Of a stretch of 45,129 bases of DNA, positions 29,269 through 34,679 are shown in pieces. Origin of the DNA: Nitrosopumilaceae archaeon (lineage in GTDB: Archaea; Thermoproteota; Nitrososphaeria; Nitrososphaerales; Nitrosopumilaceae); the NCBI GenBank assembly GCA_028279545.1, contig JANQNN010000046.1:1-45129 (forward strand), given 5' to 3'. The position numbers were made by a program, and so were the translations under genes. Position 1 is the first letter of the stretch, and each line of letters starts with the position of its first letter. A model generated the notes under the pieces. It was not told the DNA's origin. It made no database searches and saw nothing but the letters and a program-made list of their open reading frames with translations.

Positions 29269-29430
29269 ATGTCAGTAGAAATCGCTTGTGGAAAATGTGG
29301 TGAAAAGATAACCTCCATGAAAATGCTCAAATCCTTAAAAGATGTTATGAATCATTATAATGGAAAATGTCCCTCATGTGGACAGCAATTGTCGACATCA
29401 GAATTTGCTCTTGATGCAAAAGAAAAATGA
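29269..29430 (+). CDS. Small zinc-ribbon protein (53 aa)
   Basis: A 53-residue ORF with an ATG start and two CxxC knuckles, C7/C10 (CGKC) and C34/C37 (CPSC), separated by a basic helix (SMKMLKSLKDVMNHY). This is a rubredoxin-like or zinc-ribbon fold. Function unknown; it may bind nucleic acid. Its TGA stop codon is also the first TGATC of the downstream repeat array. Confidence 0.75.
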   Translation: MSVEIACGKCGEKITSMKMLKSLKDVMNHYNGKCPSCGQQLSTSEFALDAKEK

Positions 29431-29680
29431 TCAAATTCTTTTAAAAAATGATCTTAACTGATCTAAAAATATTAATTTCTAAAAAATGATCTAAATTGAT
29501 CTCAAAGTGATCAAATTCTTTTTTAAAATATGATCTAAATTGGATTTAATTGAATCAAATTCTTTTAAAAAAATGATCTCAACTGATCTAAAAATGATCT
29601 AAATCCATCTGAAATTGATCTAATTTTTAAAAAATTGATCCAAATTTTAAAATTTGATCCAATTTCTAAAAAAATAATCT
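29428..29680 (+). repeat. Helically phased TGATC repeat array
   Basis: Thirteen GATC tetramers fall in 231 bp (at 29429, 29450, 29460, 29488, 29498, 29509, 29532, 29575, 29585, 29596, 29617, 29637 and 29656). Nearly all are within TGATC(T/A/C)(A/C)AA in one orientation. Intervals are about 10-11 bp or multiples (21, 10, 28, 10, 11, 23, 43, 10, 11, 21, 20, 19). Decayed copies (GAATC near 29552, CATCT near 29605) fill two of the gaps. A longer unit, TGATCAAATTCTTTT then TAAAA and ATGATCT, recurs near 29428, 29508 and 29551. No ORF spans it. It ends about 40 bp before the HTH/ATP-cone gene. Confidence 0.88.
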
Positions 29681-29719
29681 AGTCACAAGTCTTAATTACT
29701 CCTTTTTTTAGTCAAGAAT

Positions 29720-31813
29720 ATGGATATGTCCGAGGAACTAGAAGAACCAAAGAAAGGAAGCATTCTTCAATCTACATCGAAGCGAGTAAGAATGATATTT
29801 TCTGTTATGGCAAGTCCAAACAGAATTGATATTTTGAGAATTCTGAATTCTAAAGGACCATTAACTTATTCTGAATTAAAATCACTAGCTGGATTCAAAT
29901 CCAAAAAAGAAAGTGGAAAATTTGCATATCATCTTAGAAAATTATTAAGACAATCCCTTGTGGCCTTAAACAAATCTGAAAGACGATATACCATCACCAA
30001 CCTTGGAAAATTAGTTTTAAGCTTAGCCCGACAAATTGAGGAAAGGTCAATTATTGAAAGTGGGAAAATGTATGTTAGGACTTCCCATGAATCAATTGAG
30101 GAATTCAATTCTCATAAAATTATTCAATCTCTAGTTAAGGAAGGAAGCCTCCCATTAGAGCTAGCTCAGAAAATTACCGAAGAAGTAGAAAATAGAATTT
30201 ACAAATATCAGACTACTTATTTGACTGGATCTTTGATTCGAGAAATGGTCAATTCTGTACTATTAGAGCATGGTCATGAGGAATATCGAAATAAACTTGC
30301 ACGCCTAGGCCTGCCTGTATACGATATTCAAGAAATGCTCTCAAATTTGGATAACGTGGGAAATGGAGCCGATGGTCTATTGTTTAATACTGGTCAACGA
30401 GTATTTGCCGAACATCTACTTACAAATGTACTACCAAAAGATGTGGCTGATTCTCACCTTTCAGGTGATTTACACATTGCAAATCCCGGCATTTGGTCAA
30501 TGATTCCTGATACAATATTTGTAAACGTAAAGGAGCTTATTGAAGATGGAATAATTCTTGGCGGGAAATATCTTGATGTATCAAGAGTTCTTTCATCAAA
30601 ATCAATAGATGATGTTGCAGCATCTTTTTCCATAATTATTTCCCTTTTATCCAAAGAAGCATCACAAGAAATAGTTCTTGATGGAGTTGTTTCATTATTT
30701 AGCAAGCACTCTAAAAATATTAAAGAACTTGAACAAAAACTTTCAAACGCTTTTGCTACTGCATCTACTACATCCAATTACACAAAAACAAACACTAATG
30801 TATCAATCCGACTTGCATTGGGATCTGACTCAAAAACCCTTCATGCAATTCTAAACGCATATGAAAATTATACAAAGATAACACCCATTCCAAAAGTTGG
30901 ATTGATTATTGATTATTCAAAGGGAAAGATTTCAGATATATCTGAACAAGTTGCAAAATTAATTTCAAATGGTGGTAAGATAACATTTGCTAAAGATCAA
31001 ATTTCAAGTTATGGTATTACAAATGGTACTACAAAAAACACTGGACCACTTGCAATTAACTTACAATCTGTTTCGATAAACCTTCCAAGACTTGCTTTTG
31101 AATCAAACAAAGATGAAACTTACTTCAGAGCAAGACTTGCACTTTTAATGAAACCAGCCTTATCATCTATGGCTTTAAGAAAAAAAGATATTTCTGATCT
31201 TACAAGACGAGGATTAAATCCTATTCTTGCAAAGAATACGCAATACATGCAACGAAGTTCAGTTTCACTTGTGATTAATCTCGTAGGATTAAAAGAAGCA
31301 GTCTTTAACATTTTGGGTTACAAGGACAATAAAGATGGAAGAGCAGTACTACATAAGGTAATTGAGACCGCAGTGGATGTTGGTGCAAAGAAAAGTAAAG
31401 AGATTGGTGATCCTGTAAACATTTCAATGACTGAAACTGAAGGTTCAGTCAGATTTACAAACCTTGATGCTGAAAAATATGGAAAGAATTCAACACTAAA
31501 CGTAGGCGACTCTGATTACTATTCTCAAGGAATTGTCCTTGACGCAAATGAAGTAGTTAACTTTACCAATAAAAGCGATGAGATCGTAGAGTGTAACAAA
31601 TTCTCAAAGATTCTCAATGGCGGATTATCGGTAATTCTAAAAATTTCAGAAGATGCTAAAATTGCTGATATCAAAAAATCGATAGAAAAAACAGCAGAGT
31701 TGACGAATTCCTTCAAACCTGTTAGAAATATCGCTATTTGTGGTGAGTGTGGCTTTAAAGATGAGCCAATTACAGACAAATGCCCCAAATGTAAGTCACC
31801 TTACATAGTCTGA
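29720..31813 (+). CDS. Winged-helix / ATP-cone / NrdD-like fusion, predicted nucleotide-sensing regulator
   Basis: A 697-residue protein. Residues about 22-112 form an ArsR-like winged helix (VMASPNRIDILRILNSKGPL, YSELKSLAGF, FAYHLRKLL, a wing at RRYTITNLG). Residues about 117-205 form an ATP-cone (YVRTSHESIEEFNSHKIIQS, ELAQKITEEVENRIY, LTGSLIREMVNSVLLEHG, YRNKLARLGLPVYDI). Residues about 210-665 resemble the anaerobic reductase NrdD (NTGQRVFAEHLLTN, the LHIANPG-like segment). A zinc site follows (C674, C677, C688, C691). The protein stops there, so the glycyl-radical loop (RVxGY in NrdD) is missing. It cannot be a working class III reductase. The ATP-cone binds ATP/dATP in other proteins, as in NrdR. 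The gene is followed by nrdJ. A repressor or sensor role is inferred. Confidence 0.85.
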   Translation: MDMSEELEEPKKGSILQSTSKRVRMIFSVMASPNRIDILRILNSKGPLTYSELKSLAGFKSKKESGKFAYHLRKLLRQSLVALNKSERRYTITNLGKLVLSLARQIEERSIIESGKMYVRTSHESIEEFNSHKIIQSLVKEGSLPLELAQKITEEVENRIYKYQTTYLTGSLIREMVNSVLLEHGHEEYRNKLARLGLPVYDIQEMLSNLDNVGNGADGLLFNTGQRVFAEHLLTNVLPKDVADSHLSGDLHIANPGIWSMIPDTIFVNVKELIEDGIILGGKYLDVSRVLSSKSIDDVAASFSIIISLLSKEASQEIVLDGVVSLFSKHSKNIKELEQKLSNAFATASTTSNYTKTNTNVSIRLALGSDSKTLHAILNAYENYTKITPIPKVGLIIDYSKGKISDISEQVAKLISNGGKITFAKDQISSYGITNGTTKNTGPLAINLQSVSINLPRLAFESNKDETYFRARLALLMKPALSSMALRKKDISDLTRRGLNPILAKNTQYMQRSSVSLVINLVGLKEAVFNILGYKDNKDGRAVLHKVIETAVDVGAKKSKEIGDPVNISMTETEGSVRFTNLDAEKYGKNSTLNVGDSDYYSQGIVLDANEVVNFTNKSDEIVECNKFSKILNGGLSVILKISEDAKIADIKKSIEKTAELTNSFKPVRNIAICGECGFKDEPITDKCPKCKSPYIV

Positions 31814-31835
31814 AAATCGCAATTAAAAAACTTGT

Positions 31836-31970
31836 AACGATCGTTTAGCGAAATATTTTGCCTATTTATTATTATGTGATCATTCGCATACCGCATAAGT
31901 TGTGCCAGTATGAGTTTCATAGTAGCGGTGTTAAAATTATTGACAAGTAAAGGGGACAAGATCAAAATTT
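31836..31970. promoter_or_regulatory. nrdJ upstream region with palindrome and GATC sites
   Basis: The 214-bp gap before nrdJ has no convincing gene. It holds the 10-bp palindrome AACGATCGTT (31836-31845), TGATCA (31877-31882) and AGATCAAAATTT (31959-31970). The last two resemble units of the array in front of the upstream regulator. A control role over nrdJ is inferred. I found no cobalamin-riboswitch motif. Confidence 0.35.
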
Positions 31971-32027
31971 TTCGAGCACATAAGTTATATCCACAATCAT
32001 TCTTACTCTTTCTTGGAGATATTATAA

Positions 32028-34679
32028 TTGGATAATTCACAAATAGAGAGTACTATCAATGAGATCCGTAAGCGCAGTGGCGTAGTTACGGCTTTCAATG
32101 AGGATAAAATTTCAAATGCTATCTTTAAAGCATTAGCAGCCACATCTAAAGCCGATCGTGTGCTGGCAGACCAACTTGCAAATAAAGTTGTACAAAAACT
32201 AGTCGAGCAAGGTTTTACAAACACTAGAACACCTAGTGTTGAAGATATACAAGATATTGTAGAATCTACTCTTATTGAATCAGGTAATTCTGATATTGCA
32301 AAAGCGTATATCGTTTACCGACATGAGAGAAGAAAACTAAGAAGCGAAAAGATGAAAGTTTTAAACGCCAAAAGTTTGGATCCAGTTTCAAAGAAATTTG
32401 ATCTAAATTGCCTTCGAGTTTTAGCGTCCAGATATCTTTTTAGAAATGGAAAAAATGAGATCATTGAAACCCCAAGTCAAATGTTTGAGAGAGTAGCAAT
32501 TTTAGTAGGAATAGGTGATATCCTATATGATCCTCAAGTCTTTGATAAATCAGGAAACAATACTCAAAATATCGATGAAGCTAAAAGCTATTTAGAGAAA
32601 CTAGACAACTTTGATTATAAATTCAAGGTTGGACAATATTTTCTCAACAAATGGCATTTTAGAGCACTAATTCATCACTACATTACTCTCGCAAGCCATG
32701 GACAAATGAAAGTAAGCTTTAAGGAATTGATTACTTTAATTGCGGCCAAAAAATTAGATGCATATTCTGAACGAATAACAGAATATTTTGAATTGATGAC
32801 GTCACAAGACTTCTTGCCAAATTCACCAACAATGATGAATGCAGGTGGTAGACTAGGACAACTCTCCGCATGTTTTGTTCTTGGAATGGAAGATGGAATG
32901 GAAAAGATAATGAAATCTACTTCTGATGCAGCTTTAATCTTCAAGTCTGGAGGAGGAGTTGGAATCAATTACTCTGATCTTCGAGAAGAAGGTGACATTG
33001 TTGCATCCACATCAGGAGTTGCATCAGGACCAGTGTCGTTTATGAACATCATAAACACTGTTACTGAAGTTGTAAAACAAGGTGGAAAAAGAAGAGGTGC
33101 TAATATGGGAATTATCGAATCATGGCATCCTGATGTTGAAAAATTCATTACCAATAAGACCCAGCCAGGAGTGCTTGAGAATTTTAATATCAGCGTTGGA
33201 ATATGGGAGGATTTCTGGAATTCTTTGGTAAATACTGAAGATGGTACCTATGTTTTACGCAGTCCCAGAGATAAAAAACCCGTAAAAGAGATCAATGCCC
33301 ACCAGCTAATCGATTTGATTGCATTATCGGCATGGAAGAGTGCTGAGCCTGGTTTGATCTTTTTTGATCAAATTAACAAGTACAACGTGTTTGCAAAAGC
33401 TAGACAAGCCCCCTTAAGAGCAACTAATCCATGTGGCGAACAAAGTCTTTACCCATACGAATCATGTAATCTTGGTTCTATCAATCTGGTAAACTTGGTC
33501 AAAAGAAAAGCTGATGGTGAGTATGAATTTGATTGGCAAAGATACGAAGAAACAATTAGAAAAACCACAAGATTCTTGGATAATATTATTGATGTAAATA
33601 ATTATCCAGTAGATGAAATCAACATTGCATCAAAAGAATCTAGAAGAATTGGGTTAGGTGTAATGGGTGTTGCAGATTTGTTATACAAATTAAAAATCCC
33701 ATACAATTCACCTGAAGGATTTGATCTTCAATCAAAACTTTCAGAAGCTCTAACGTATTACTCAATGGAAGAAAGCGTTGCACTTGCAAAATCAAGAGGT
33801 GAATTCCCATTGTGTTCTAAAACAGAATACCCTGAAGGAAAAATCCCAATTGCGGGGTACTATGAAAGACCAAAGGAAACACATTCTTACGAATGGGATG
33901 CTTTAATTGAAAAGATCCAAAAGTATGGCGTTAGAAACGTATTGACAACTACTGTTGCACCAACGGGAACGTTATCAATGATTGCTGATTGTTCAAACGG
34001 AATGGAACCTGCATTTGCACTTGTTTTCGAAAAAAGAGTAACTGTTGGAAGATTCTTTTACACCAACAAAATTGTAGAACAAGCTCTAAAAGAAAATGGT
34101 TTGTATAATGATGAAATCCTTGCAAAAATAGCAGACAATTATGGATCATTAAAAGGAATTGATGAAATTCCGCAATGGATGCAAGATGTGTTTGTTACTG
34201 CAATGGACATTCATTGGGCTGATCATCTAATGGCACAAGGTGTTTGGCAAAATTGGATTGGAAATGCAATTGCAAAGACAATCAATATGCCATACGACGT
34301 TACTGCAGAAGATGTAAAGTCTGCGTATTTGTTGGCACATGAATTGGGATTGAAGGGAATTACAGTATACCGTGATGGCTCTAGACATAAACAGGTACTA
34401 CATATGACTAGTGAAAATGTAGAAAAGACCTTTGATGTTGTCCCAAGTCAACATATCACTGAGTATGTAAGTGAATCAATTACAAATCCATACATCAAGT
34501 CACAAGTGAATACTTCCTTACAAATCAAGGTTCATGAAGAAGAAATTTTACCCGAACCACAAAGACCAGAAGAAATGTCAGAGGATAGGTTATGTCCTAC
34601 ATGTAAAAACAATCTAGTCTTTGTTGAAGGATGTAGTATCTGTATTGAATGCGGATACAGTGGATGTACCTCAGGATAG
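32028..34679 (+). CDS. nrdJ: Class II (adenosylcobalamin-dependent) ribonucleotide reductase
   Basis: The 883-residue enzyme makes deoxynucleotides using a cobalamin-generated thiyl radical, without oxygen dependence. An ATP-cone occupies about residues 15-105. The reductase core has redox cysteines C282 (LSACFVLG) and C480 (YESCNLGS), the thiyl-radical C469 with N467 and E471 (NPCGEQ), and the phosphate-binding PTGTLSMIADCSNGMEP region. A C-terminal zinc-type Cys cluster (CPTC, CSICIECGYSGC) delivers reductant. The TTG start is preceded by GGAG about 10 nt upstream. The enzyme requires B12, which these archaea make. The upstream fusion gene may control it. Confidence 0.95.
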   Translation: MDNSQIESTINEIRKRSGVVTAFNEDKISNAIFKALAATSKADRVLADQLANKVVQKLVEQGFTNTRTPSVEDIQDIVESTLIESGNSDIAKAYIVYRHERRKLRSEKMKVLNAKSLDPVSKKFDLNCLRVLASRYLFRNGKNEIIETPSQMFERVAILVGIGDILYDPQVFDKSGNNTQNIDEAKSYLEKLDNFDYKFKVGQYFLNKWHFRALIHHYITLASHGQMKVSFKELITLIAAKKLDAYSERITEYFELMTSQDFLPNSPTMMNAGGRLGQLSACFVLGMEDGMEKIMKSTSDAALIFKSGGGVGINYSDLREEGDIVASTSGVASGPVSFMNIINTVTEVVKQGGKRRGANMGIIESWHPDVEKFITNKTQPGVLENFNISVGIWEDFWNSLVNTEDGTYVLRSPRDKKPVKEINAHQLIDLIALSAWKSAEPGLIFFDQINKYNVFAKARQAPLRATNPCGEQSLYPYESCNLGSINLVNLVKRKADGEYEFDWQRYEETIRKTTRFLDNIIDVNNYPVDEINIASKESRRIGLGVMGVADLLYKLKIPYNSPEGFDLQSKLSEALTYYSMEESVALAKSRGEFPLCSKTEYPEGKIPIAGYYERPKETHSYEWDALIEKIQKYGVRNVLTTTVAPTGTLSMIADCSNGMEPAFALVFEKRVTVGRFFYTNKIVEQALKENGLYNDEILAKIADNYGSLKGIDEIPQWMQDVFVTAMDIHWADHLMAQGVWQNWIGNAIAKTINMPYDVTAEDVKSAYLLAHELGLKGITVYRDGSRHKQVLHMTSENVEKTFDVVPSQHITEYVSESITNPYIKSQVNTSLQIKVHEEEILPEPQRPEEMSEDRLCPTCKNNLVFVEGCSICIECGYSGCTSG

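Follow-up and report, generated by a model that had tools for sequence, protein, structure and literature searches.

The 697-residue protein described here, encoded in a 45,129-nucleotide contig of a Nitrosopumilaceae archaeon (the whole of which we call the window), is likely a transcription factor dedicated to ribonucleotide reductase, a reading in which comparisons of sequence and gene order give us good confidence. It joins a winged helix and an ATP-cone to a body derived from the class III reductase NrdD, and this NrdD body is catalytically dead. The protein thereby offers a concrete candidate for reductase control in archaea that have no NrdR, namely the ammonia oxidizers and much of their phylum. 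Ammonia-oxidizing archaea rank with the ocean's most abundant cells.

Pfam profiles identify in the window protein a winged helix-turn-helix (PF24038, DUF7347, E = 2.6e-10; PF12840, HTH_20, E = 7.7e-8), an ATP-cone (PF03477, 34.8 bits against a cut-off of 25.8) and an NRDD domain (102.7 bits, with the best stretch at residues 436–693), and the three domains occur together in all 40 family members scanned. The NCBIfam profile for NrdD, TIGR02487, scores the protein at 100.8 bits, below its cut-off of 326, indicating that it is related to NrdD but is not an NrdD enzyme. The last cysteine of the zinc site is followed by six residues and the C-terminus, and no glycyl-radical loop resembling R[VIT]xGY was found in the six frames of positions 31501–32200, which rules out a hidden radical loop or a frameshift downstream of the open reading frame. 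A preliminary description of the sequence had proposed this three-part fusion, its termination a few residues after the zinc site without a radical site, and a following nrdJ gene with its own ATP-cone; the Pfam and NCBIfam profiles and the frame search bear out all three. Most full-length forms in Nitrosopumilaceae are 63–91% identical to the window protein, whose closest named relatives in database records belong to Nitrosopumilus and Nitrosarchaeum.

Table 1. Positions in the window of the putative regulator, its parts and the adjoining reductase gene.
Feature	Positions	Strand	Evidence
Winged helix/ATP-cone/pseudo-NrdD protein, 697 aa, ATG start	29720–31813	+	ORF, Pfam/NCBIfam, fold match, dN/dS
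Winged helix-turn-helix (DUF7347/HTH_20), residues 26–100	29795–30019	+	Pfam
ATP-cone, residues 117–189	30068–30286	+	Pfam
NrdD-like body, residues 200–670, catalytic cysteines and substrate motifs lost	30317–31729	+	NRDD match
Four-cysteine zinc site, C674/C677/C688/C691, C-terminal	31739–31792	+	Cysteines invariant in alignment A1
Intergenic region with probable nrdJ promoter: TATA-like ATAAGTTATATCC at 31980–31992, GGAG at 32015–32018	31814–32027	+	Conserved blocks, 110 aligned intergenic regions
Candidate operator GTAGCGGTGTTAA (footprint GTANCGGTGTNAA, 13 bp)	31922–31934	+	Recurrence in intergenic regions
nrdJ, class II B12-dependent ribonucleotide reductase with own ATP-cone, presumed target	32028–34679	+	ORF, Pfam, NCBIfam

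The window's nrdJ is the only reductase that a profile search detected in the genome; a second, active NrdD was not found elsewhere in it, TIGR02487 matching the window ORF alone. The gene begins with TTG, 215 nt past the regulator gene, and the GGAG located 9–12 nt before this codon supports it as the start. Among the 127 loci of the same order with enough downstream sequence (some genomes are counted twice), nrdJ follows directly in the same orientation in 126, at a spacing of 68–880 nt in which the upper value reflects a broken regulator frame, and the same arrangement holds for 14 other families of this order. In five families that are more distantly related, the neighbor is a class III nrdD (L134, L141, L140, L202, L204) or another nrdJ (L144), so that the regulator stands immediately upstream of a reductase in 20 families overall. 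Taking a genome to hold about 1600 genes, one or two of them for reductases, we estimate chance adjacency at about 1 in 1000 per genome. The neighboring nrdJ genes form five lineages, about 57% or more identical within and about 25–49% between, and five representatives together with the window's gene confirmed their identity as B12-dependent reductases. Because the neighbor may be any of five NrdJ lineages or a class III nrdD, the regulator evidently keeps its place while the reductase is exchanged. At five loci (L144, L185, L187, L188 and L216) the adjoining NrdJ lacks an ATP-cone, so that the sole cone encoded at the locus is that of the regulator. The nrdJ beside the regulator at L188 (4265–7711, minus strand) bears an intein with LAGLIDADG domains recognized by Pfam.

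NrdR, as represented by TIGR00244, had no match in the window's genome, exceeded the cut-off in none of 41 relatives, and was not found over the cut-off in six distant genomes with reductase-adjacent regulators; the window protein itself did not match this NCBIfam profile. In a phylum sample, NrdR over the cut-off was confined to one family, f5 (13/200 genomes). At all eight f5 loci examined (L225–L232), nrdR immediately precedes an nrdD that has its own cone, mostly followed by an nrdG-like gene, while the pseudo-NrdD gene of this family is found next to pyrB with no reductase there. NrdR and the pseudo-NrdD thus appear to exclude each other from the position before the reductase, as would be expected of functional equivalents; this is a correlation, and f5 is a single lineage. 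The nrdR-nrdD arrangement of f5 is apparently a bacterial-type unit.

Among the loci inspected in other families, about 14 have the regulator abutting a convergent pyrB with no reductase alongside, suggesting that the reductase may be neither the sole target nor the original one. At such loci the regulator may act in trans or on pyrimidine genes, and a model involving the reductase alone is not certain outside the ammonia oxidizers' order. The strongest alternative to a dedicated reductase regulator, which we consider less likely, is a broader regulator of nucleotide biosynthesis whose main or ancestral targets are the pyrimidine genes pyrB and pyrI plus the reductase, adjacency to the latter being one of several arrangements. 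In many families pyrB, verified as aspartate carbamoyltransferase in one representative, either adjoins the regulator or stands just past the reductase, with pyrI behind, and f5 keeps the dead protein beside pyrB even though it has its own nrdR-nrdD. However, the convergent (tail to tail) orientation of pyrB means that it has no promoter in common with the regulator, the link to the reductase is constant in the ammonia oxidizers, and pyrB is not among the genes after nrdJ in the window.

Purifying selection is approximately ten-fold stronger on the helix-turn-helix and cone of the regulator than on its body, the reverse of what is seen in active NrdD. Measured against eight close relatives, and rough because synonymous sites are near saturation, dN/dS was 0.003–0.014 for the winged helix, 0.005–0.021 for the ATP-cone where computable, 0.05–0.13 for the NrdD-like body and 0.045–0.071 for the whole protein, which makes the winged helix the most constrained region and the body the least. 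At loci where the regulator and an active NrdD stand in tandem, regulator identity is 78% in the cone and 47% in the body, compared with 74% and 81% in the adjoining active enzyme. Such a shift of constraint is expected if the body performs no chemistry and the functions of greatest importance are DNA recognition and nucleotide sensing. Cone residues equivalent to R120, T169, K133, R174 and R195 are kept in nearly all members, and the cone likely binds nucleotide. It is the best-conserved possible sensor in the protein, with an altered lid motif: the usual KRDG (RDG) has become RTSxx with an invariant Glu throughout the family, and the replacement of KRDG implies that the ligand may not be ATP/dATP.

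A tight gene pairing and an ATP-cone would also be found in a post-translational partner, a dead subunit that binds NrdJ or NrdD and relays the cone signal, in which the helix-turn-helix serves as a protein-interaction module or is merely autoregulatory. The several lineages in which the adjoining NrdJ is without a cone fit this arrangement as well. We nevertheless judge it improbable, as the interface would need to be kept across NrdJ lineages of such low mutual identity and a class III enzyme besides, and the constraint on the winged helix favors DNA as the partner of the protein.

An AlphaFold2 model of the 697-residue protein, built on an alignment of 40 family sequences, reached a mean pLDDT of 82.2 and a pTM of 0.73. 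When this model was used in a structure search, 36 chains of class III reductase (NrdD) preceded any other fold, the best match being the class III reductase 9d3x (E = 2e-20, TM about 0.56); a modest full-chain TM is expected given the uncertain placement of the domains and the presence of the additional winged helix. We aligned 66 members of the family together with 11 active NrdDs. The equivalent of Cys79, the first catalytic cysteine, is never Cys in the family (0/66) and the cysteine-loop pattern is likewise found in none of the 66, so that no member retains the two catalytic cysteines. The glycyl-radical column is empty in 34/66, the loop being missing, and holds Gly in three, each without the cysteines; an intact radical loop was found in no member. 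Of the two substrate motifs defined in Prevotella NrdD (PMC11226230), the NxN flap has its first Asn deleted in 66/66, and HxHD has another residue in place of its second His in the window protein as well as in the states seen most often. The joint loss of NxN, HxHD and the catalytic cysteines disfavors substrate sensing at the old active site, and the suggestion of the preliminary description that substrate or product is read there is consequently unlikely.

The family does keep the Asn of the NLPR motif (66/66), usually its Arg (60/66) and, in most members, the zinc cysteines, which together with the barrel fold could point to an enzyme that catalyzes a different reaction on nucleotides. This we consider very improbable: all tested catalytic and substrate-contact motifs of NrdD are gone, selection constrains the body less than any other region, and even the zinc site has been lost in L206 and L209–L212. 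A decaying nrdD pseudogene left behind by a switch from class III to class II, to which the lost radical loop and catalytic residues might be attributed, is refuted by the dN/dS data, since the gene is conserved and intact, with its frame open in nearly all genomes searched, and was already dead in lineages that still have an active nrdD; the same intactness, conservation and overall ratio exclude a chance reading frame.

With the window protein as the sole query, matches were obtained in 292/398 genomes of the phylum, some of the weak ones being ordinary NrdD; strong matches in other families begin within about the first 30 residues, indicating that they include the winged helix. About 80 loci were fetched for inspection. 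Outside the ammonia oxidizers' order, members are mostly 660–830 aa long, and the loop after the zinc site is degenerate (SRVSAKHL, SRSSATYI) or missing, whereas active NrdDs adjoining the regulator read SRVTGYYQ. Short forms of 535–602 aa (L206, L207, L209–L212, L214 and L215) have lost the zinc site. Those at L206 and L209–L212 lie near a carbamoyltransferase gene that at first impression was pyrB; the one checked, at L206, proved to be ornithine carbamoyltransferase, and we therefore do not count this group as pyr-linked. Two genomes of the window's own family depart from the usual arrangement. At L113 (G311) the regulator is in two overlapping pieces through a frameshift or stop, with nrdJ still downstream, which could reflect a sequencing error or a recent loss, and L121 (G082), from a genome 99% complete, holds a divergent 638-aa copy without the zinc site and without nrdJ in the 1982 nt downstream. 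No viral copies of the regulator were present among IMG/VR contigs, and a full-text literature search, with subscription papers and preprints outside its scope, returned no earlier description of the family.

The family is phylum-wide and was already dead outside the ammonia oxidizers. In a tree made by a quick method and containing several long branches, a single branch with support of 99 divides it from the 11 active NrdDs, which is compatible with one origin. On balance, and less firmly than we assign the role of the protein, we favor a history in which a reductase was turned once, early in archaeal evolution, into a reductase transcription factor. The protein would fill the place of NrdR in the phylum, would have persisted through several exchanges of the enzyme that it controls, among class III and a number of class II lineages, and would alone regulate the reductase of ammonia-oxidizing archaea. 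The preliminary description had the essentials right, set the scope too narrowly and was probably wrong on the old active site. The likeness to NrdD that it noted is matched by the predicted structure, the nrdJ neighborhood it pointed to is conserved across the order, and the protein, with a winged helix instead of a zinc ribbon, is indeed of a type separate from NrdR; the inactive reductase body that it saw as recruited by "this archaeon" is present, but belongs to lineages across the phylum.

The intergenic region downstream of the regulator gene is the probable site of the nrdJ promoter (Table 1). Within it, the footprint of the candidate operator, allowing one mismatch or none, recurs in 57/126 intergenic regions compared with 1/252 shuffles, a count inflated by kinship in that related sequences are not independent. 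The candidate is weak, is recognized in part of Nitrosopumilaceae only, and is the sole exact match in the genome, where about one exact hit is expected by chance; we regard it as a lead only. No element common to the regulator's own promoter and that of nrdJ was established. Just upstream of the regulator gene lies an ORF for a 53-aa four-cysteine zinc-ribbon protein (MSVEIACGKCGEKITSMKML...KCPSCGQQLSTSEF, 29269–29430, plus strand), which also precedes the regulator in the Nitrosopumilaceae loci inspected and could form one unit with it. Between the two, about a dozen TGATC(T/C)-type repeats occupy 260 bp of AT-rich DNA (29431–29690); they are fewer in relatives, and are possibly regulatory or else a simple expansion.

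From these comparisons we infer DNA binding, a ligand, a sign of regulation and an operator for the proposed transcription factor. Its winged helix would bind the promoter of whichever reductase gene it adjoins, nrdJ in this genome, and perhaps its own promoter too. The ATP-cone would respond to an adenine nucleotide, most likely to ATP versus dATP, and this signal would alter the oligomeric state or the DNA affinity of the protein, with the dead NrdD body acting as a dimer scaffold that relays the change in the cone to the DNA-binding heads. If NrdR is a guide, the protein would most likely be a repressor at high dATP. The model predicts a nucleotide-dependent DNA binder, and presents a natural experiment in regulator evolution in which a dead paralogue stays by a promoter while the enzyme it serves is swapped for unrelated versions.

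The proposed regulator is best read as convergent with NrdR in role and independent of it in origin, and not as a member of the NrdR family. Both join an ATP-cone to a DNA-binding domain, both are encoded directly before reductase genes, and each presumably ties reductase transcription to the level of nucleotides. NrdR, however, is a protein of about 150 aa whose N-terminal zinc ribbon binds NrdR boxes (PMC9110341), whereas the family described here consists of proteins of about 700 aa with a dead NrdD body, a DUF7347/HTH_20 winged helix in place of the N-terminal zinc ribbon, and four cysteines at the C-terminus. With class III NrdD (TIGR02487, PF13597) the family shares the ATP-cone, the barrel fold and the four-cysteine zinc site, but it has no catalytic cysteines, glycyl radical, NxN flap or HxHD, and has added the winged helix. 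Its DNA-binding domain is that of archaeal DUF7347/ArsR-type winged helices (PF24038, PF12840), which are usually short proteins, while here the domain heads a 700-aa fusion. Winged-helix regulators with dead-enzyme bodies include Bacillus PurR, whose body is phosphoribosyltransferase-like, and the ROK repressors, which are kinase-like; as in these, a pathway enzyme would have lost catalysis, gained a DNA-binding head and come to act as a ligand sensor or scaffold. We know of no transcription factor derived from a reductase, and the present family would differ from PurR and ROK proteins in that its source enzyme is ribonucleotide reductase and its probable sensor is a separate ATP-cone.
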